DNA from: Chrysophaeum taylorii
Lineage: Eukaryota; Sar; Pelagophyceae; Pelagomonadales; Pelagomonadaceae
Length of the DNA stretch: 64,000 nt
NCBI GenBank assembly: GCA_029834535.1
Contig: JAQMWT010000240.1
Coordinates: 36,287 to 100,286, forward strand
Reading direction: 5' to 3'
The notes under the pieces were generated by a model, which worked only from the letters and a program-made list of their open reading frames with translations, ran no database searches and was not told where the DNA came from. Position 1 is the first letter of the stretch, and the number at the start of each line of letters is the position of its first letter. This document shows, piece after piece, positions 19,988 through 64,000 of this stretch. A program made the translations under genes and the position numbers.

Positions 19988-21691
19988 ACTTTTTGAAGGT
20001 GTACCGTAGTGGCCCGCCACGTCTGAAAGTCAATTGAAAGTCGAGTTTAGAAAACCCGATCTCAAGTGCCGCCGCGACGCAATCGGGAGCCTCGCGTGCC
20101 GCTCTCTTGCAATGCGAAGTGCACCACCGCGATTCCACCGACGGTCGCAGTCGACAGCTCGACGTCGTCACAATTAAACGAAAAATCCTTTCGCTGCACA
20201 AAGCCGTACGGGTCGATCGTGCTCTGGGAGCGCGAACTCGTGGCGTCTCGCAATTCCTACGAAGACTCGCTCGATACCTCGATATGTGCGCAATGTGTGT
20301 AGGAGAGCACTGCGTCCTGGAAGCTGCGCAAATGTCTTGGTTTCTCGTCCGAATTTGCGAAATAGAGCCGAGTCCTGGATCTCGTATTCAGCATTCAACT
20401 CGATGGTGCGCACAACCAACGCGAGACTTGGTCTGCGTGTCGTAATTTTTTTTTTGGAGAAGCAACGTATTCAGCATTCAACTCGATGGTGCGCACAACC
20501 AACGCGAGACTTGGTCTGCGTGTCGTAATTTTTTTTTTGGAGAAGCCGCCGAGGGTATCGCTAACATACATTCCCGTTGATTGTGGTTGCAACGACCACT
20601 TTCGTGGCTTTAAGAAAAAAGCTACTAGAGTCGAACGAACGAAATTGGGCCCAAGACTTCTCCGAGGAACCTGAGAACGATGCCGCCGGACACATTCCGA
20701 GCAGCCGCCGCGCTTGTCAGGCTCGAGATTTTCCGCTATAGTCAAAAATCTGAATTATTGAGCTTCGCGAAGGTGGCGAATCTGCCGACGTCGTGGTCTG
20801 TCTGCAAAGGGCTCGTTGCACGACAAAAACGAGCCTGTTGAAAAAGATGGGGTACCAGCAGGCACCAAAAAAACCGCACGTCAAACCCTCGGCGTCGTGA
20901 TGTTGGCTCTCCTCGCGAGTCACCGCGCAGTCTTAGGCAATCCCCAACAACTTTGAGTGCGACGCGCTCGATCGCGATATAATTGACTCGCCGGAAGTTA
21001 AACCAACAAAGACTCCTCCTCCTACTTTACGCGCAGAGAGGACAGCACGCTCCTCGCCCACCGTCGATGATCTGCATAGACGCGCTCTCGACAGCGCCGT
21101 GCTCTAGAGACATCCTAGAAAAGGAGCAGCGCCTGGGGGTCAAAAAGCATTATCTTTCATCCGCTTGGGGTGTGTGGCGATCAACCTCTCCGAGTCCACG
21201 CCCGCGCTTTCGCCCATCGCCGATGCATCATCGATGCGACAGCAACGCCACCGATATCATCCATCTCCCCTTGTAGTATTTTCGAATACCCCAGCTCCTC
21301 GAGAATCGTCGACATTTTCGAAGGGCGATAGATGATAATATAACAACTAGCATGATGGATTCGTATTTTGCCAGGTCGCGAGCGATGTGTAGAGAAGCAA
21401 GATCTGAGTCCGCGTATATGCACGTCCGGGACGCGTCCGTTGAGAGAGGAATATCAAGTCAGGGACTGCAGGCAAGGAGTCACCGCAGCCCCATGAGAGC
21501 ACGCACGCAGCTTCGTGGACACCGTACGCGTGACGACGTGTGTGTGTCACACACAGGGGGGAGCATTTAAAAAACTGAGGTGCGTTGTTCGTGAAAAGGT
21601 CTAGATTTGAATTTCGAGAGAATGGTCGATAAGGGATATCGAAGAGGACCAACGCGCGAGCGAGGAAACTACGCCGTGTTTATTTATTTAT
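19988..21691. other. Decayed or non-coding stretch
   Basis: No intact gene is recognisable. Minus-strand frames contain fragments such as VGGIAVVHFALQES (near 20100) that could be more of the beta-helix relic to the right, but stops and frame changes prevent a confident assignment. It includes the 83-bp tandem duplication. Confidence 0.35.
20383..20548 (+). repeat. 83-bp direct tandem duplication
   Basis: Positions 20383-20465 are repeated at 20466-20548 almost without change, including the run of T's. The near identity indicates a recent duplication inside otherwise decayed sequence. Confidence 0.9.
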
Positions 21692-30214: not shown

Positions 30215-30290
30215 CCCCTCTCGTCTGTCTTTAAATGTCGACTGCTAAGAGGGGGGGGTGTGTGTGGGGAGCATGAAGGATGTGGGTGGT
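30215..30290 (-). repeat. Solo copy of the array-associated repeat, beside the SLC35A start
   Basis: The block GTCTGTCTTTAAATGTCGAC, then a G-run, GTGTGTGTGGGGAGCATGAA and GGATGTGGGTGG, is the reverse complement of sequence at about 33670-33722 and 34850-34925 and is related to 63880-63980. Here it stands alone in the 5' flank of the nucleotide-sugar transporter and supplies an upstream in-frame ATG (30280). Confidence 0.82.
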
Positions 30291-32344: not shown

Positions 32345-32509
32345 TGAATTAGGCAATTACAAGTTCAGGCCAGTAAGTTCACCTACTCCCAATCTCTAAC
32401 CCCAGTAAGTTCACCTAATCCCAGTAAGTTTCTTGAATTTTAAAGTAAGTTCACCTAGTCAAAATCTCTAACCCCAGTAAGTTCGGCGTAAACCCACTCG
32501 TGCTCACAC

Positions 32510-32821
32510 TAGGGTCCGAGGATGGATGACGTCATTCACAGTATCCCCTAACACTCCCCCCAAACCGTGTCGGATAAGAAAACGAGACTAGCCCGCGCCG
32601 CAACGACGGGTCCTACAACGCGTGGGCTTTTTCCTTTTTTTGCGTGAGGGGACGAAAGGATGCCGACTTCACTATGGGGACTAGCTCCATCGCGACGATC
32701 TCGCGGCGTGGCGGCACATACTGCTTGAGTACAAATGAACATAGCTCAGCGATCCGTTGAGTATGTCTTAGTACAAACTGAAACATAGTTAACGGCTCGT
32801 ACGAACTTTCTTATCCGACCC
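32510..32821. mobile_element. 312-bp MITE-like insertion with 9-bp target duplication
   Basis: TGCTCACAC flanks the insert on both sides (32501-32509 and 32822-32830). The other units (near 59360, 60420 and 61476) carry the same flank uninterrupted, with TGCTCACAC or TGCTCACAT occurring once, and so act as empty sites. The insert starts TAGGGTCCG and ends CGGATAAGA in reverse complement with GGGTC at the tip. A 13-bp inverted pair GTCGGATAAGAAA lies at 32569-32581 and 32807-32819. Nine-bp duplications are typical of Mutator-like elements. There is no ORF. Confidence 0.8.
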
Positions 32822-33030
32822 TGCTCACACCCCACTCCTTCGAGCTCGTCGCTCTCGCCTCCGCCAATCCAAGCTGCCTTGATCCGCACACGCCGCTAAC
32901 CTTTGAGTTTACTCTAAAACCCCCAGTAAGTTCACCTGGTCCCAGTAAGTTCACCTGGTCACTATATTCACCTATCCCAATCTCAAACCCCAGTAAGTTC
33001 ACCTGGTCCCAGTAAGTTCACCTACAGTGC

Positions 33031-33612
33031 GCGTGTAGACGCCGGGAGGGGGCTTATCGTTATTGCGGAGCACGTGTGGGGTAGGGTGGAGTCGTCGACC
33101 CAAATGATTATATCCTCGGGGTTGCCAATCGACAGGGAGCCACGTAGAGCTGGACGTGGCAGAAGACGGGTTTGGGCAAGAGGACACCGACCTCGCGGGG
33201 CGTCTGGCCCTGGCTCTTGTTGATCGTTTGGCGTCGGCGGGCCTTAAGGGATACAGGTTGGAGGAGCCTCGGTGACACGCCACGATCGATCACGTATCTG
33301 GTACCGTTGCAGTGGCCGTGCGACGGGTCGAAGTTGCGAAGACTTTAAGCTCGCGATCAACGTCAGCATGCCGTTGGTTGTCAGGGAGTTGAAAACTCTA
33401 CTGTAAAGAGCGAGGCGTCGTCTTCCGACCCAACCTAGTCGGCCGAAAAGAACTCCGACGCCTCGTCTCCGGGAAAAAAAGGCCGCGGTCATGCGCGCGT
33501 TGTCAGCATCGACAACATCGTTTCGACGGGGCGTGAGAATGGCGCGCTGAAAGAGCCGCCGCGGGTCGTGGAAACAGTCTGCGAGGTCGCCGTAGACGGC
33601 TTGGAGGATCAC
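33031..33612 (-). pseudogene. Helitron-type Pif1 helicase fragment, copy 1
   Basis: The minus strand encodes the C-terminal helicase part in two frames. YGDLADCFHDPRRLFQRAIL and DVVDADNARM come from one frame; [20 protein letters not shown] and QLYVAPCR (motif VI) come from the other. Frame changes and deletions separate them. No Rep HUH motif is present nearby. Confidence 0.8.
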
Positions 33613-34050
33613 TGTCTGGCTCTCGCGCCTACCTGATCCTTACCCTAAATCGAGGGACAAACAAACAAACCCTTCATGCTCCCCACACACACCCCCCTCT
33701 TAACAGTCGACATTTAAAGACAAACAAGTGCAGGCAAGTAAGTTCACCTAGTCCCAATCTCTAACCCCAGTAAGTTCACCTGGTCCCAGTAAGTTTCATA
33801 TAAGTTCACCTGGTCAGTAAGTTCACCTAGCTCACACCAACTCCTTTGAGCTCGTCGCTCTCGCCTCCGCCAATCTAAGCTGCTTTGATCCGCACGCGCC
33901 GCCAACCTTTGAGTTTACTCTAAAAACCCTTTACTCTAAAAGCCCAAGTATGTTCACCTGGTCCCAGTTTCACCTGGTCACTCAGCTCACCTAGTCCCAA
34001 TCTCCAACCCCAGTAAGTTCACATGGTCCCAGTAAGTTCACCTACAGTGC

Positions 34051-34633
34051 ACGTGCAGACGCCGGGAGGGGGCTTATCGGTATTGCGCAGCACGTGTGGG
34101 GTAGGGTGGAGTCGTCGACCCAGATGAGTATATCCTCGGGGATGCCGATCGACAGAGAGCCACGTAGAGCTGGACGTGGCAGAAGACGGGCTTGGGAAAG
34201 AGGACGCCGACCTCGCGGGGCGTCTGGCCCTGGCTCTTGTTGATCGTTTGGCGTCGGCGGGCCTTAAGGGATACAGGTTGGAGGAGCCTCGGTGACAACG
34301 ACACGATCGATCATGTATCTGGTACCGTTGCAGTGGCCGTGCGACGGGTCGAGGTTGCGAAGACTTTAAGCTCGCGATCAAAGTCAGCATGCCGTTGGTT
34401 GTCAGGGAGTTGAAAACTCTACTGTAAAGAGCGAGGCGTCGTCTTCCGACCCAACCTAGTCGGCCGAAAAGAACTCCGACGCCTCGTCTCCGGGAAAAAA
34501 AGGCCGCGGTCATGCGCGCGTTGTCAGCATCGACAACATCGTTTCGACGGGGCGTGAGAATGGCGCGCTGAAAGAGCCGCCGCGGGTCGTGGAAATAGTC
34601 TGCGAGGTCGCCGTAGACGGCTTGGAGGATCAC
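34051..34633 (-). pseudogene. Helitron-type Pif1 helicase fragment, copy 2
   Basis: Same region as copy 1, with one frame open for 204 codons (34633 to 34019) through a mixture of correct-frame and shifted segments. ILQAVYGDLADYFHDPRRLF and the out-of-frame TINKSQGQT and QLYVALCR motifs are visible. The open frame is a by-product of indels, not an intact helicase. Confidence 0.82.
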
Positions 34634-34968
34634 TGTCTGGCTCTCGCGCCTACCTGATCCTTACCCTAAATCGAGGGACAAACAAACAAACAGACAGACA
34701 GACAGACAGACTTCGTCGCACATACGTCCGGCGGCAGCATGCGTACGACCTACGGGCGGGGCCCGTCCTCTCTTCGCCTGCCCCACGCCTCGGCGATGAC
34801 CCCGACTAGGTCCCGCGTACTTATCTCTGCCCGTCAGGCACATCCCTCATGCCCCACACATCCACCCACATCCTTCATGCTCCCCACACGCACCCCCCTC
34901 TAAGCAGTCGACATTTAAAGACAGACAGACAGACAGACAGACAAACATCTGTCGATTAGTAGTTAGGA

Positions 34969-56335: not shown

Positions 56336-59252
56336 ACTTGATTTCTGGGTCGAAATCTTTCTTTTAAAACGACTGGCTTCTTTCTTCTGACTCGGGCAAA
56401 TGGCGTTTCTTGCTGACGTCGCCGGGATATAACGGCATTTTCACCAGCCGGCATCCTCACGACCGGGATAACGTTCAACTTCACGTCTTGCAGTTGAACC
56501 ATTTTTGTGAGATAACGGAAAAAATCAAACGTTCCAATTATTTTTAAGTGGAAAGGATTTTTAATAATTGTTCGTCGGGTGCAACAAACACGACGAAAAC
56601 CCCGAGTATCTTCCCAGCATGCATGTATGCTCGGCTTATTTTTTTTTTTTAACCCGCGAGCGGCGAGCTTTTCCACACGCCTACGTGCGTCATCTTGAGG
56701 ACCGCAGAATTTGTTCTAACAAACACATCCCAAGACGACGTCTTAGCCTCAGCTAGTGGTTCGTCACCATTAAAAACGGCGTCGAACGAGACCCGCGGGG
56801 CAGGCGATCTTGAAATTGCGGATGGGACCGCGGCACGCTGGATGCGCCGGAGCGCGAGCTGCTGGAGTGTTAGGCCCAAATCAACATCCCTCAAATACGG
56901 GTGAGCGTCCCGCAAGCGGTTTTGCTCGCTGGAGTCTACTCTCTGATCCTAAACTTTCACCAAGCGACAGACATCATAGCAATGGGCCACCAGCAAATTG
57001 CAAACAACCGATATTGAGAACATCATCAAGCGCGCTGCTTCCCGTCTGCAGGGGGCAACGCTTTTCTTCATTCGTCGGTGTGGCACCATTCGAAGGCGCC
57101 TCATACTGCACGTACAGGGATCTTGTACGACTGCCTTGAGAGTGAGATTGTGGCTAATCGACACCGCAGGTTTGTGTCTTTGCGGTTGTCGCGGAAAGTC
57201 ACGACCTCCAGAGCCCGGGCTGGCGATGGCACCGGCGCGCCAGTACCACGCGCGCGCGCGCGCGCACAAACTGGCCTCGGAGCATGCTTGACCAGCTGGC
57301 CAATAAAATCTGTCCATGGTTGTGTGGTGTTGCTCATATTTCATGCTTGTAGCCTGCCGCGACAATACTGCGCGTTCTTTGATTGTACCCTTAAAAATGG
57401 TGGTCCCCGAAAAAGTCTTAAACACCAGCCACGCCGAAGTCTAACGCGCCGTGAATATCTACGGCAATTCTTCGGCTGCACGTCGAGTTTATTCCCACGT
57501 AGTAAGTGGACTCAGGAGTGTCAAAGAGCATGAGATGCCGTAATCGACGCCCTAGGGGGGTCCAGCATCCTAAATACACAAGACCGCTCTATATTCGCGG
57601 ATGTATCTGTCGATGTCCTAAATGTGGTTCGCAGTAAGGGCCCTTAACCCTCTCCGCTTCGAGATCCACCGCGCGGAACGATCTTCGCCAGCCGCGTAGG
57701 CGGCGATGTGAGCACACAATCCTTGTTGACGCGGCAATTGCACTCACTACCCCGGTACGAACGCCGCATAAGAAGGTTCACGATAATTTTTTGATTGTAT
57801 TCGAAGACATTATCGCGCGGACGTGTCCAACACGAAAACTTCATCCGCGGACTCAATAACTGCGCGATATTCATTTAACCGATTAGCTGCGTAACTATAT
57901 TAGAAACCCAGATGATAATGCTCGAGAGAAATGTCACCTGGGTTGTTCTCGGGAAGACGTCGAAAAGTTCGATGAGCTCAAAACTGATATCAAAGTTGTC
58001 GTCGAAGTCCAAACAAAGGTGGGTCAATGCGCCCCCAGCGGCTGATGATCGCATTTATTCTATGTTTTCCTCTTGGCGAGTTTCTGATTGAACCTACAGC
58101 AGACTTCAGAAAGCCCCGTGGTCAGCGAAGAACCCAAGGTCGATGTCGGCCGAGTATATGTGGCCGCGCACGCGGAGACCTGGCCCCTGGCGTACGAGGA
58201 CCGTGCCCATCCCTCTTTAGCCTACTCTTAGAGTTGAGCTTACTTTTTGGGAGCGAATGGCTCCCCGCCTCTCATTTTCCTTTTTTTTTCAAATTATTAA
58301 CCCTGCGATCACCTGCTGTCTCTCAATTGACGATTCCAGTGACGCCACTTGCGAGTTCGTCCACGGCCGTTACCGACTTTCTCTTGCCACCCTTGTCGCT
58401 TGTGGTGTGGATGAAGACCAATGAGAGTCTGGGTTAAACTGGTATCGTGCTGCGACCGTTTAATAATGACGAACGCAGTGTTCAACTGCTTCTCACGCTA
58501 GACTCTCTACCTAAAGCTTTCAGCGCCTGTTTTAATTTCTTCCAGCCGTCCTCGTCTTCTACTGCACATCTTTCGTGGTCCGCCTTCTGAGTCCCTGCTT
58601 ACCGTCATTGTGGCCTGCCATTTAAACGCCTATCAAGGGAATTTCTACCACCACCAGACAACCTAATGCGGGATTTTCGTTTTACTAAAGGTTAAGGCCT
58701 ACAAATCGAACCACGATTTCTGTGCGGTTCGGGAGGGCAAGTGTCGGGCACCGTACTGTGTGAAGGATTTGGCTCAAAGCGATGACGCCATCGCTAGGTG
58801 GATTGTAGTAAAAACGCGCTTCCATTTTTTTTACCACCTATTCTACGGTACATTTTGTATACGGGCATCGTGATGTCACATCAGTAAAACATACTGGCGA
58901 AAAAGCATGAAGGGCGCACTTTTTGAGCAAGATATGAACACTAACACATACTGCTAGTAAAAGTCCCGCAATAGGGTGGCTGCCGGGTAGTGGTACGTCG
59001 AAGCAAGCAAAAAACAATGAAGGAAGGGACAAAACTGCTCAAAGAAGGACCTAGAGAACAGTAAGCACAACTGTGTTACCCTTCAGCAGAGGCGTGAAAA
59101 CGTGGGAACAGTGGTAGTCTGTCCTCGAATCTGTCTCTTAATCGAGGACAGCCGGTGTGAATAACACAGCGTTTTCTTAAATCGAAGGTGGCAAAGTTAA
59201 GTGAACTAACCCTAGAATAGGGGTTACTAACCCTAATTCAGATTTTCCGTAC
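56336..59252. other. Gene-poor region, no recognisable gene
   Basis: About 2.9 kb. Short frames on both strands have no recognisable domain. It contains a (CG)n run at about 57247-57266 and poly-T/poly-A tracts. Fragments such as VACHLNAYQGNFYHHQTT near 58608-58662 look coding-like and may be the relic of a transposon or gene, but I cannot name it. Confidence 0.45.
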
Positions 59253-59579
59253 TACTAATCGACAGATGTTTGTTTGTCTGTAAATGTCGACAAGTGCAGG
59301 CCAGTAAGTTCACCTACTCCCAATCTCTAACCCCAGTAAGTTCGGCGTAAACCCACTCGTGCTCACACCCACTCACCCCACTCTCCTTTGAGCTCGTCGC
59401 TCTCACCCCCGCCAATCCAAGCTGCTTTGATCCGCACGCGCCGCCAACCCTTGAGTTTACTCTAAACACCCCAGTAAGTTCACCTGCTCCCAGTAAGTTC
59501 ACCTGGTCACTCAGCTCACCTAGTCCCAATCTCTAACCCCAGTAAGTTCACCTGGTCCCAGTAAGTTAACCTATAGTGC

Positions 59580-60190
59580 GCGTGTAGACGCTGGGAGGGG
59601 GCTTATCGGTATTGAGCAGCACGTGTGAGGTAGGGTGGAGTCGTCGACACAGAAGAGGATATCCTCGGGGTTGCCGATCGACAGAGAGCCACGTAGAGCT
59701 GGACGTGGCAGAAGACGGGCTTCGCCAAGAGGATGCCGACCTCGCGGGGCGTCTGGCCCTGGCTCTTGTCGATCGTTTGGCGTCGGCGGGCCTTAAGGGA
59801 TACAGGTTGGAGGAGCCTCGGCGACACCACACGATCAATCATGTATCTGGTACCGTTGCAGTGGCCGTGCGACGGGTCGAGGTTGCGAAGACTTTAAGCT
59901 CGCGATCAAAGTCAGCATGCCGTTGGTTGTCAGGGAGTCGAAAACTCGACTGTAAAGAGCGAGGCGTCGTCTTCCGACCTAACCTAGTCGGCCGAAAAGA
60001 ACTCCGACGCCTCGTCTCCGGAAAAAAGGCCGCGGTCATGCGCGCGTTGTCAGCATCGACAACATCGTTTCGACGGGGCGTGAGAATGGCGCGCCGAAAG
60101 AGCCGCCGCGGGTCGTGGAAATAGTCTGCGAGGTCGCCGTAGACGGGTCGTGGAAATAGTCTGCGAGGTCGCCGTAGACGGCTTGGAGGA
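59580..60190 (-). pseudogene. Helitron-type Pif1 helicase fragment, copy 3
   Basis: Same core as copies 1 and 2: YGDLADYFHDPRRLFRRAIL and NDVVDADNARM, plus [14 protein letters not shown] and QLYVALCR in another frame. A 35-bp internal tandem duplication (GGGTCGTGGAAATAGTCTGC starting at 60110 and 60145) is unique to this copy. Confidence 0.8.
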
Positions 60191-60635
60191 TCACTGTCTG
60201 GCTCGCGGGCCAAACTGATCCTTACCCTAAATCGAGGGACAAACAAACAAACAAACAGACAGACAAACATCTGTCGATTAGTAGTTACAAGTGCAGGCCA
60301 GTAAGTTCGCCAGTAAGTTTACCTGGTCCCAATCTCTAACCCCAGTAAGTTCACCTGGTCCCAGTAAGTTCACCTAGTCCCAATCTCTAACCCCAGTAAG
60401 TTCGGCGTAAGCCCACTCGTGCTCACATCCACTCACCCCACTCTCCTTCGAGCTCGTCGCTCTCACCTCCGCCAATCTAAGCTGCTTTGATCCGTACACG
60501 CCGCTAGCCCTTGCGTTCACTCTAAAAACCCCAGTAAGTTCACTTGGCCCAGTAAGTTCACCTGGTCACAGTTCACCTAGTCCCAATCTCAAACCCAGTA
60601 AGTTCACGTGGTCCCAGTAAGTTCACCTACCGTGC

Positions 60636-61216
60636 GCGTGTAGACGCCGGGAGGGGGCTTATCGGTATTGCGCAGCACGTGTGGGGTAGGGTGGAGTCGT
60701 CGACCCAGATGAGTATATCCTCGGGGTTGCCGATCGACAGAGAGCCACGTAGAGCTGGACGTGGCAGAAGACGGGCTTCGCCAAGAGGACGCCGACCTCG
60801 CGGGGCGTCTGGCCCTGGCTCTTGGTGATCGTTTGGCGTCGGCGGGCCTTAAGGGATACAGGTTGGAGGAGCCTCGGTGACAACGACACGATCGATCATG
60901 TATCTGGTACCGTTGCAGTGGCCGTGCGACGGGTCGAGGTTGCGAAGACATTAAGCTCGCGATCAAAGTCAGCATGCCGTTGGTTGTCAGGGAGTTGAAA
61001 ACTCGACTGTAAAGAGCGAGGCGTCGTCTTCCGACCCAGCCTAGTCAGCCGAAAAGAACTCCGACGCCTCGTCTCCGGAAAAAAGGCCGCGGTCATGCGC
61101 GCGTTGTCAGCATCGACAACATCGTTTCGACGGGGCGTGAGAATGGCGCGCTGAAAGAGCCGCCGCGGGTCGTGGAAATAGTCTGCGAGGTCGCCGTAGA
61201 CGGCTTGGAGGATCAC
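60636..61216 (-). pseudogene. Helitron-type Pif1 helicase fragment, copy 4
   Basis: Minus-strand core with ILQAVYGDLADYFHDPRRLF at the 61216 end and, in another frame, [20 protein letters not shown] and QLYVALCR near 60740-60830. It is frameshifted between them as in the other copies. Confidence 0.82.
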
Positions 61217-61695
61217 TGTCTGGCTCTCGCGCCTACCTGATCCTTACTCTCGCGCCTACATGATCCTTACCCTAAATCGAGGGACAAACAAACAGACAAA
61301 CAGACAAACAGACAGACAAACATCTGTCGATTAGTAGTTAAGACAAGTGCAGGCCAGTAAGTTCGCCAGTAAGTTCACCTGGTCCCAATCTCTAACCCCA
61401 GTAAGTTCACCTGGTCCCAGTAAGTTCACCTAGTCCCAATCTCTAACCCCAGTAAGTTCGGCGTAAACCCACTCGTGCTCACATCCACTCACCCCACTCT
61501 CCTTCGAGCTCGTCCCTCTCACCTCCGCCAATCTAAGCTGCTTCGATCCGCACACGCCGCTAGCCTTTGCTTTCACTCTAAAAACCCCAGTAAGTTCACT
61601 TGGTCCCAGTAAGTTCACCTGGTCACTAAGTTCACCTAGTCCCAATCTCAAACCCCAGTAAGTTCACCTGGTCCCAGTAAGTTCACCTACAGTGC

Positions 61696-62289
61696 GCGTG
61701 TAGACGCCGGGAGGGGGCTTATCGGTATTGCGCAGCACGTGTGGGGTAGGGTGGAGTCGTCGACCCAGAAGAGGATATCCTCGGGGTTGCCGATCGACAG
61801 AGAGCCACGTAGAGCTGGACGTGGCAGAAGACGGGCTTCGCCAAGAGGACGCCGACCTCGCGGGGCGTCTGGCCCTGGCTCTTGGTGATCGTTTGGCGTC
61901 GGCGGGCCTTAAGGGATACAGGTTGGAGGAGCCTCGGTGACAACGACACGATCGATCATGTATCTGGTACCGTTGCAGTGGCCGTGCGACGGGTCGAGGT
62001 TGCGAAGACTTTAAGCTCGCGATCAAAGTCAGCATGCCGTTGGTTGTCAGGGAGTTCAAAACTCGACTCTTGAGAGCGAGGCGTCGTCTTCCGACCCAAC
62101 CTAGTCAAGAACTCCGACGCCTCTAGAACTCCGACCCGCCTCGTCTCCGGGAAAAAAGGCCGCGGTCATGCGCGCGTTGTCAGCATCGACAACATCGTTT
62201 CGACGGGGCGTGAGAATGGCGCGCTGAAAGAGCCGCCGCGGGTCGTGGAAATAGTCTGCGAGGTCGCCGTAGACGGCTTGGAGGATCAC
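61696..62289 (-). pseudogene. Helitron-type Pif1 helicase fragment, copy 5
   Basis: Nearly identical to copy 4 over most of its length. It carries an extra partial repeat of AACTCCGACGCCTC near 62107-62150, so the N-terminal part (ILQAVYGDLADYFHDP) is in yet another frame. Confidence 0.82.
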
Positions 62290-62954
62290 TACTGTCTGGC
62301 TCTCGCGCCTACCTGATCCTTACTCGCGCCTACCTGATCCTTACCCAAATCGAGGGACAACAGACAAACAGACAGAGACAAACATCTGTCGATTAGTAGT
62401 TAGGACAAGTGGTAGGGGGCAGGCATGTTAGACAGGTTCACCAATAATGTATGATCCCAACTCTAGACTACGTGCGCGCGAGCTAGAGTTCAGGCCTGTT
62501 TGTCTGTAAGTTCACTAAAAGGTACCCGTCAAGTCCGCAATCTCTAATCCCCAGTAAATTCGGTGTAAACCTACCCTGGTCTCTATACCCGCACAGAAAG
62601 TTCGGTCGCAAACTCACGCCTCTCTCCTTTGAGGGCTCGTTAGGCTCTCAAGGACCCCTGGCATATCTAGAGCTGCTTTGATCGCGTCACACGCACGCTG
62701 GCCTTTTTGGTAATTTTGTTACTCTAAAAGCATCATTAATCCCCGCCACAAAGCCCTCAGGTAAAAGGCTTGGCAGCACGGTTGGTCTCATTCGTAAGCT
62801 CACCTTGGTCAGTTTTTCAAAACTAAGAGCCAGGCGTAAAGTCTCCTACCCTGCTAATCCGCGCAGTAAGTTCACCTGGTTGCTCGCCGCAGTAATAGCT
62901 ACCTGTGTTCGCAGTAGGAGTTGGACGGAGATTTGAATGGTTAACGCTATAGTG

Positions 62955-63740
62955 GGCGGCGATGGTAGACGCCGGCCGAGGGGGGCTTATTCTGTATTGC
63001 GCGCGAGCACGTGTGGGTTGAGGGTGTAAGGGCGGCTACGCCAGATGAGCGAGTCGTCGACCCTAGAATAGGGCATATCTCTCATGGGTTGCCGATCGCG
63101 AGACCTAGCCAACGTAGCCAGGCTGGACGTGGCAGAGACCGCCGGGCTTCGCGCAGAGAGGGGATAAACGTGGGCCGGTCACCTCGAGCGGGGTGTCGGG
63201 GGCAGGGCGCCTGGCTTTCTTGGTGATGGGCGTTTTGCGTCGGCGGGCCTCAAGGGATTACAGTCGGAGGAGGCGCTCGGTGCACGGTACGCGATCGATT
63301 CATGTATCTGTACTGTGGCTAGTGGCCGTGGCGACGGGTCGAGGTTGCGAAGAGCATTTAGCTCGCGATCAAATTCAGCTATCGCGTTGTGTTTGTCGAG
63401 GGAGTTCTAAACCTCGACTACTTGAGAGCGAGGCGTCGTCTTCGCGCCCACCTAGTTCGGGCCTAAAAAGAACTCCGACGCCTCTACTGTAAAGTATGGC
63501 GAGGCGTCGTCCTCTACCGTGCAGGGTGCTAGTCATGCCGAAAGAACTCCGACCCTCGTCTGCGCGGGAAAAAAAAGGCGCGCGTCAATGGCGCGCGTTG
63601 TCAGCATCGACAACATCGTTCAGACGGGGCTTGAGGTCTGGCGCGCTGTGCTAGAAAGAGGCGCGGCCGCGGGTCGTGGATTAATAGTCTGGCGAGGTCA
63701 GGCCGTAGACTGGCTTGGTGGGATTTTGCACTACTGTCTG
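62955..63740 (-). pseudogene. Helitron-type helicase fragment, copy 6, insertion-rich
   Basis: Recognisable against copies 3-5 (GGCTTATTCTGTATTGCGCG, ATGTATCTGTACTG, CAGCATCGACAACATCGTT) but interrupted every 5-20 bases by extra bases, so no long frame remains. The excess length is nearly all small insertions. Confidence 0.7.
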
Positions 63741-64000
63741 GTTCTGCTCGTTCGCTACCTGATCTTATTCTCGCGCCTACTCTGATCCTTACCCTAAATC
63801 GAGGGACAAAACAAACAAACAACATGAGCAACAATAGCATCTTCGATTAGTAGTTAGGATAGATAATAGCTGGTGAAGTAGGGTTGTGTGTGTGGGGAAG
63901 GGCATGAAGGAATGTGGGTGGTTTGTGGGGTGTTTGTTTGTCTGATCTGTTTGTTTTTAAAGCAGTCGACTGCTTAAGAGGAACGTAACGGAACATCGCT

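Follow-up and report, generated by a model that had tools for sequence, protein, structure and literature searches.

Head-to-tail arrays of a non-autonomous Helitron in Chrysophaeum taylorii: joints, unit diversity and a target motif favour serial insertion beside resident copies

Tandem Helitrons, insertions of one Helitron against another and 3′ ends reading CTTG have all been published (PMC5148889, PMC4778049, PMC5876387, PMC4289320), and PMC5148889 leaves open whether tandem arrays originate as one-step concatemers or by repeated insertion. In this study, we analyzed a stretch of 64,000 nucleotides from the alga Chrysophaeum taylorii (hereafter, the window), namely positions 36287-100286 of contig C240 in a genome of 70.8 Mb and 697 contigs; C240 is 100,286 bp long, so that the window ends where the contig ends. 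The original prediction on this DNA described six head-to-tail units on the minus strand with a period of ~1.05 kb, and self-comparison of the window confirms them at 32.4-35.0 and 59.3-63.9 kb. We describe below that the unit is a non-autonomous Helitron sharing its two ends with an autonomous family (family A), and that a second autonomous family with different ends (family B) takes part in the same kind of joints.

Among the described systems, Helraiser/Helibat (bat Helitron1) resembles the present one in its RepHel protein, the 5′ TC, the T following the 3′ end and a preference for AT-rich sequence that is strongest on the side of the transposon 3′ end; AT-rich sequence was also noted near the left-end cleavage site, and the same study describes bat insertions in which the 5′ end of one Helitron lies against the 3′ end of another, as well as some CTTG ends (PMC4778049). 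In contrast to Helraiser, abutment is a main mode here (among the first 100 3′ ends listed, 38 have a same-strand 5′ end within 60 nt), both the unit and family A normally terminate in CTTG at the 3′ end with no clear hairpin, and a positioned TAA is seen in the target, although the sequence logo of the Helraiser paper itself lies outside this comparison. In Fusarium FoHeli and in Metarhizium, an element was found 2 bp upstream of the 5′ end of another, together with one triple tandem, and the authors offered either insertion at the 5′ end or rolling-circle replication as the explanation (PMC5148889); those elements are Helitron2-like with asymmetric inverted repeats and the cases are single, whereas hundreds of joints are available here, which is enough to test the two explanations against each other. 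Helitron arrays in plant centromeres are credited to rolling-circle amplification in the title of Xiong et al. 2016, a paper that we know through those citing it, while the diversity of units argues against such amplification in the present genome. Pleurotus HELPO2 shares the CTTG 3′ end, but its main text does not contain the word "tandem" and mentions no arrays (PMC4289320). Wheat Xuan-Feng is, likewise, a Helitron with circles and a marked AT-dinucleotide preference in de novo insertions, but genomic tandem repeats were excluded by inverse PCR in that case, and its two insertion logos are outside the comparison (PMC13286980). In the literature searched, which was mostly openly available and did not extend to the Helraiser and wheat logos, neither a positioned TAA target motif nor a test of array origin by unit diversity is reported; what is new here is the evidence on the mechanism and the target motif.

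We consider it probable (about 0.7) that the arrays are extended by one independent copy after another inserting beside resident Helitrons, on either side and in the same orientation; the satellite-like rows would seem mostly not to be made by local copying. Exact patterns were counted over the whole genome, with 0 for the reversed-pattern controls. The counts were 2,470 for the 3′ end, those of family A being included, 2,164 for the 5′ end and 372 for the exact 3′|5′ joint, whereas the copy numbers would lead one to expect 0.04 exact abutments by chance. With about 1 kb assumed per copy, the family would occupy roughly 2.5 Mb, or 3-4% of the assembly. Ends lying no more than 30 nt apart were arranged head-to-tail in 668 rows (2 of 100 rows listed are double counts), tail-to-tail at 14 sites and head-to-head at 6 sites. 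Among the first 100 3′ ends listed, which lie in contig order on C1-C11, a same-strand 5′ end followed at 0-3 nt in 29 and at 4-60 nt in 9, an opposite-strand 5′ end occurred within 60 nt in none, and no gap fell between 30 and 954 nt. The arrays occupy many contigs with unrelated flanks, and C20 alone has 12 joints between 32.1 and 46.3 kb. Two of the head-to-head pairs of 5′ ends lie 63 bp apart at C351:126917-127023. The right flank of an array in C61 (L033 from ~3008; C61:55145) has more than 20 other matches in the genome, which start at, or a few bases from, the unit 5′ end; that Helitron end therefore adjoins the end of another high-copy repeat.

Rows of this kind might also be produced at one stroke by a rolling-circle concatemer, in which RepHel fails to stop at the 3′ end, the circle is copied repeatedly and a ready-made array is inserted in a single event, and the exact CTTG|TCC joint is what would be expected of a circle junction. 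A classic satellite, in which an ancestral unit is spread by unequal crossing-over and kept alike by concerted evolution, would in turn fit the head-to-tail order and the near-constant period. Both origins lead one to expect that neighbours in an array are alike, but they are mostly unlike. Across 59 units from 30 loci and the window, the difference was 3.5% within arrays and 3.8% between them, and the nearest neighbour lay in the unit's own array for only 3 of 53 units. As the loci in these two comparisons had been chosen by similarity to one query, the comparison was redone as a paired permutation: in 23 arrays, the mean adjacent distance was 3.74%, against 3.86% with the partners permuted, and the unit's own neighbour had a mean rank of 10.3 of 23. 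Longer stretches were retrieved for five arrays, namely C366 and C673 (similarity list), C11 (both lists), and C20 at 41.2-46.4 kb and C57 (end-pattern lists only). In these, the nearest neighbour was in the own array for 3 of 24 units, and for 1 of 8 in C11; the adjacent and between-array means were 4.6 and 4.5% in C673, 4.5 and 4.8% in C11, and 3.9 and 3.8% in C57. Within-array differences in most arrays are, therefore, about as large as those between arrays, contrary to a concatemer, and little local homogenisation is seen, contrary to a satellite. The occurrence of the arrays on many contigs with unrelated flanks and the T following 2,420 of the 2,470 3′ ends, which points to insertion events, also speak against the satellite origin, which we regard as very improbable. 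Membership in satellite DNA was rejected on these unit distances for most arrays sampled, with the exceptions of C366 and, weakly, C20.

Joints between different Helitrons are equally hard to obtain by copying a single circle. At C105, the CTTG of a unit is followed end-to-end by a family A element, the CTTG of which meets the TCC of the next unit. All ten autonomous B loci with a visible CTAG have a Helitron 5′ end at 0 nt (six B-type and four A-type; two of the loci, L039 and L040, are so similar that they may be one duplicated locus), and so do 2 of the 8 A loci in which the 3′ end can be seen (C105 and C650, with C6 and C268 counted as one). Such cross-family joints, with a unit behind B or an A element between units, are therefore not products of one circle. 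The spacers of 2-13 nt, starting with T, that were found at 20 of the 98 head-to-tail joints listed also speak against a concatemer. While the exact TCCTAAC is the commonest joint (57/98), the first base after CTTG was T in all 98, spacers included. For the arrays sampled, the concatemer model is largely refuted, and we would assign it only a small probability, albeit a larger one than that of the satellite. With joints in the hundreds, units that are diverse and a pair of families that differ in their ends, the models of one-step concatemer and repeated insertion give opposite, checkable predictions in this genome. The original prediction had left the choice between a satellite and a tandemly amplified non-autonomous Helitron; the non-autonomous Helitron holds, but the data do not support that the rows arose mainly as a satellite or through amplification in place, because neighbours are mostly not closest relatives and other Helitrons are joined at the same nucleotide.

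The insertion sites themselves show a motif. T follows the exact 3′ end in 2,420 of 2,470 cases (another base in 50), and in the host flanks of units and A copies, T comes first in 34 of 35. These 35 remained of 41 flanks once joints, sites within Helitron leaders and rows of less than 30 nt had been removed; the 35 include two from L014 that are nearly identical. In 25 of the 35, a TAA starts at index 5-10 (0-based; i.e., 6-11 nt downstream), as compared with a background of ~5% in the window, and shuffled flanks gave a mean of 6.5 and a maximum of 16 in 10,000 runs. The mode is index 8, namely T N7 TAA. Insertions into the leader of family A are similar: the recurrent joint T(T/C)TGTCTTTAAA has TAA at index 8 in five forward rows, and TCGACATTTAAA on the other strand has it at index 8 in three of four rows, the fourth, in the window, having TAC instead of TAA (TTTACA). 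Helitron 5′ ends contain the same trinucleotide, at index 3 and 10 in TCCTAACTACTAA, 0 and 7 in TAACTACTAA, and 7 and 11 in the B end TCCACAATAATTAA.

We propose that the unit is mobilised by the RepHel of family A, which has the same ends. RepHel would nick A|T sites with a TAA shortly into the 3′ side, so that the target would read A|T N~7 TAA, and the polarity of the nicked strand would fix the orientation. The 5′ border of a resident, A|TC..TAA, could then serve as both the cleavage site at the start of transposition and a match to the integration target: the CTTG of the new copy would join the 5′ T of the resident and the new copy would take over the A, giving an exact and orientation-locked tandem. 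Because T..TAA adjoins the A|TC cleavage site in Helitron 5′ ends, the resident end itself would be a favoured target. We accordingly entertain, tentatively and at somewhat less than even odds, that the Helitron 5′ terminus copies the target of the transposase, residents being landing pads for their own and other families.

The data discriminate only weakly between the two sides of the resident, and use of the 5′ side is inferred. Insertion on the 3′ side, re-using the host half-site T N~7 TAA that stays whole immediately downstream of CTTG or CTAG, is a form of the same serial insertion; it predicts spacerless joints at least as well, as in the 57 exact TCCTAAC, as well as a host motif at the outer 3′ flank, and it needs no leftover TCC. 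The TAAC of the resident was found, however, at index 5-10 in 17 of the 20 gapped joints in a scan that allowed up to 28, as if the resident 5′ end were the target, and in 17 of 25 arrays it is the 3′-most unit that has diverged further, a weak trend (p 0.11 by sign test and 0.048 by Wilcoxon test) and the opposite of what 3′-side insertion predicts. We regard the 3′ side as the less likely of the two, and count it within the probability given above for serial insertion.

Several observations weigh against serial insertion, or against parts of it. Adjacent pairs are marginally closer than permuted ones (fraction 0.08 for 23 arrays and 0.05 for 30 pairs). Some local duplication has taken place, as units 3 and 4 of C366 are only 0.9% apart; the adjacent mean is 1.8% in C366, against 3.4% to other arrays, and 2.7% against 3.6% in C20, and this close pair and these somewhat closer neighbours are what a satellite would give. 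Local duplication hence occurs but is not the rule. The weak age gradient toward the 3′-most unit mentioned above belongs here too. As for the motif, in the commonest joint, TCCTAAC, the TAA falls at index 3 and 10, whereas the host mode is 8, and the motif alone therefore does not predict the joint. Ten of the 98 joints lack TCC (CTTG|TAACTAC), and the leftover TCC that 5′-side insertion predicts was absent directly upstream in the five readable arrays with this joint; another unit follows at the upstream position in 5/5. Helitron1 elements insert between A and T without duplication; the T side is described above, and on the 5′ side A was read in just 14 of 38 contexts, a mixed set that still contains overlooked joints and the ends of other elements. 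A search with one query for six joined flank pairs returned no empty site, and no match extended more than 17 nt beyond a joint. In family B, the 5′ end was deduced from repeated starts after CTAG and from three A-preceded starts in L055, two of which lie within B-leader sequence, and a degenerate B-like 3′ end in L014 (CTTACTAT) has no Helitron 5′ end after it.

The unit is ~1.06 kb long and reads 5′-TCCTAACTACTAATCG...CTGCACTTG-3′, or TCCTAACTACTAATCGACAGATG to CTGGCCTGCACTTG in helicase orientation; comparison of the window with 30 genome loci indicates that arrays begin and end at the same nucleotides against differing flanks. Unit positions 124-713 in helicase orientation are helicase-like, with 76-90% DNA identity by piece, mostly 79-85%, to the RepHel of family A. 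The minus-strand frames ARRRQTI(N/T/D)KSQGQTP...QLYVA(L/P)CR and AILTPRRNDVVDADNAR occur, broken, in 5 of the 6 window copies, while the fourth unit of the second array has no frame of at least 60 aa with the helicase motifs. In a Pfam scan of three fragments, one matched Pif1_2B (E 9e-5, 22.6 bits against a cut-off of 23.9) and two gave no match; by tblastn, fragments were closer to family A (E 2e-30 and 1e-14) than to family B (2e-7 and 2e-9). The core is a C-terminal fragment of a Helitron helicase without Rep, as first proposed. Since its 5′ and 3′ ends are common to family A, the unit would have arisen from an A-like Helitron by internal deletion and divergence.

In its termini, the unit is less canonical. 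Most outer ends and joints have TCC or TCT as the 5′ terminus, which fits the Helitron 5′ TC, but the CTTG 3′ end of the unit and family A departs from the consensus CTRR, to which the CTAG of family B conforms. This departure does not exclude membership, because some accepted Helitrons are reported to end in CTTG (PMC4289320, PMC4778049). When one sequence of each was folded, neither the last 59 nt of the unit (z +1.1) nor the last 47 nt of A (z +1.6) gave a 3′ hairpin that outperformed shuffled sequences, and a GC stem was predicted at the 3′ end of B (z -0.87); the CTRR end with a hairpin, which the original prediction had suggested to look for, was consequently not found, the unit ending in CTTG without a clear hairpin. 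Despite these two departures at the 3′ end, we class the unit as Helitron-like by its protein and 5′ end. Elements of the Helentron, Helitron2 and HINE type have a TT target, asymmetric terminal inverted repeats and often central tandem repeats. This assignment was rejected: the 38 bases at the 5′ flank were 14 A, 12 G, 6 T and 6 C, and the two ends of the unit differ in sequence, although a tandem motif does exist in its 3′ region.

The genome has 40 matches to Helitron-type Rep and 45 to Pif1 domains, so that the Rep-Hel homologues, the lack of which would have spoken against a Helitron origin, are present. Open frames of family A match Helitron_like_N (E 8e-59, C105 copy) and PIF1 (E 2e-63, C268 copy), the C105 frame being broken within the helicase. 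Among solved structures, the A helicase frame is closest to Helraiser (7LCC; E 1e-117, the next chain 1e-12), and a cellular PIF1 was not the best match. The 3′ end of A, GCAAACTTACTGGCCTGCACTTG, is the same as that of the unit and lies against several distinct flanks; its 5′ end at C105, TCCTAACTACTAATCG...CCCTCGATTTAGGGTAAGGATCA, is also that of the unit. Identity among the A copies compared is ~97-99%, and A therefore moved recently. The first ~450 bases of L001-L006 in family A contain a variable tandem repeat with a 69-bp period upstream of Rep, which lies within the long open frame of the C105 copy. C6 and C268 share an A element and an array, both at nearly equal offsets and 99% alike over 3.5 kb, and may hence be haplotype copies in the assembly. 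At L072 (~930-1220; C331), a copy of A carries an insertion of ~290 bp between GGATCAAAAA and ATCAAAAA, which suggests another transposon with a target duplication of ~8 bp; its CTCCCGGCGTAGGTTGGCACC end is also found in L056, L068 and the C61 flank. Family B has the termini TC...CTAG. A miniature B of ~292 bp lies directly behind an autonomous B copy (L044 3230-3522; C403), and L055 (2499-2767; C568) has three B-type 5′ ends within 270 bp, with A before each, resembling the multiple 5′ ends reported in Fusarium (PMC5148889).

Features of the window are collected in the table. The two units of the first cluster (32.36-34.97 kb) are spaced 1,020 bp start to start and the four of the second (59.29-63.86 kb) 1,056-1,060 bp; five well-read copies are 89-94% identical over long blastn alignments, and the fourth unit of the second array aligns to the others piecewise, mostly at 77-84%. 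Relative to unit 3, this fourth unit has 120 insertion events, 25 deletions and 54 substitutions. The sequence from 62406 to 64000, the very end of C240, is insertion-rich and looks like unpolished long-read error; given the excess of insertions and the position at the contig end, unit 4 is probably the same unit with raw-read errors rather than a product of biological decay. Units 1, 2 and 3 of this array differ from the unit consensus by 4.9, 1.8 and 1.6%, respectively, and unit 1 sits inside an opposite-orientation leader fragment of family A type, at the joint CTTG|TCGACATTTA. In the first array, the 3′-most unit is flanked by T at its 3′ end (A at 32359), is broken at ~32509-32822 by another element and has its 5′ end cut within a family-A-type leader (TTTAAATGTCGAC); the internal joint, where the 3′ end of the 5′-most unit meets it, reads CTTG|TTTGTCTTTAAATG. 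The 5′-most unit has a longer leader of family A type, judged by eye to span about 34712-34968. Part of the element at 32509-32822 is also present in the flank of L011. Elsewhere in the window, an 83-bp tandem repeat in two perfect copies lies at 20383-20546.

Table. Positions of the Helitron units and associated features in the window
Feature	Position	Strand	Remarks
Isolated family-A-type 5′ leader piece	30219..30289	+	reverse-complement match to 34862-34929 and 33671-33722
Array 1, 3′-most unit	32360..33724	-	3′ end CTTG (CAAGTTC on +) at 32360
Non-Helitron insertion in array 1	32509..32822		imperfect inverted ends AGGGTCCGAGGAT... / ...TTATCCGACCCT, by eye
Array 1, 5′-most unit	33725..34968	-	5′ end TCC at 34968, A before TCC on minus strand
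Opposite-orientation family-A-type 5′ leader fragment	59246..59290	+	TCCGTACTACTAATCGACAG...ATGTCGA
Array 2, unit 1 (3′-most)	59291..60287	-	5′ end TAACTAC without TCC
Array 2, unit 2	60288..61343	-	5′ end TCTTAAC
Array 2, unit 3	61344..62405	-	5′ end TCCTAAC
Unit 3, 3′ region	61344..61690	-	tandem GGTGAACTTACTGG motifs; terminates in CTGGCCTGCACTTG
Unit 3, helicase C-terminal piece	61719..61955	-	more helicase in other frames, 61956-62165 and 62101-62319
Array 2, unit 4	62406..63859	-	insertion-rich, at contig end

In conclusion, the rows of this non-autonomous Helitron in C. taylorii are, in our reading, built mainly by serial insertion beside residents. If the 5′ terminus of a Helitron does copy the target of its transposase, transposition would be channelled into existing Helitron clusters and satellite-like arrays would be built copy by copy. 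The target motif, if true, would also explain how a transposon makes a harbour of its own copies and seeds satellite-like DNA.

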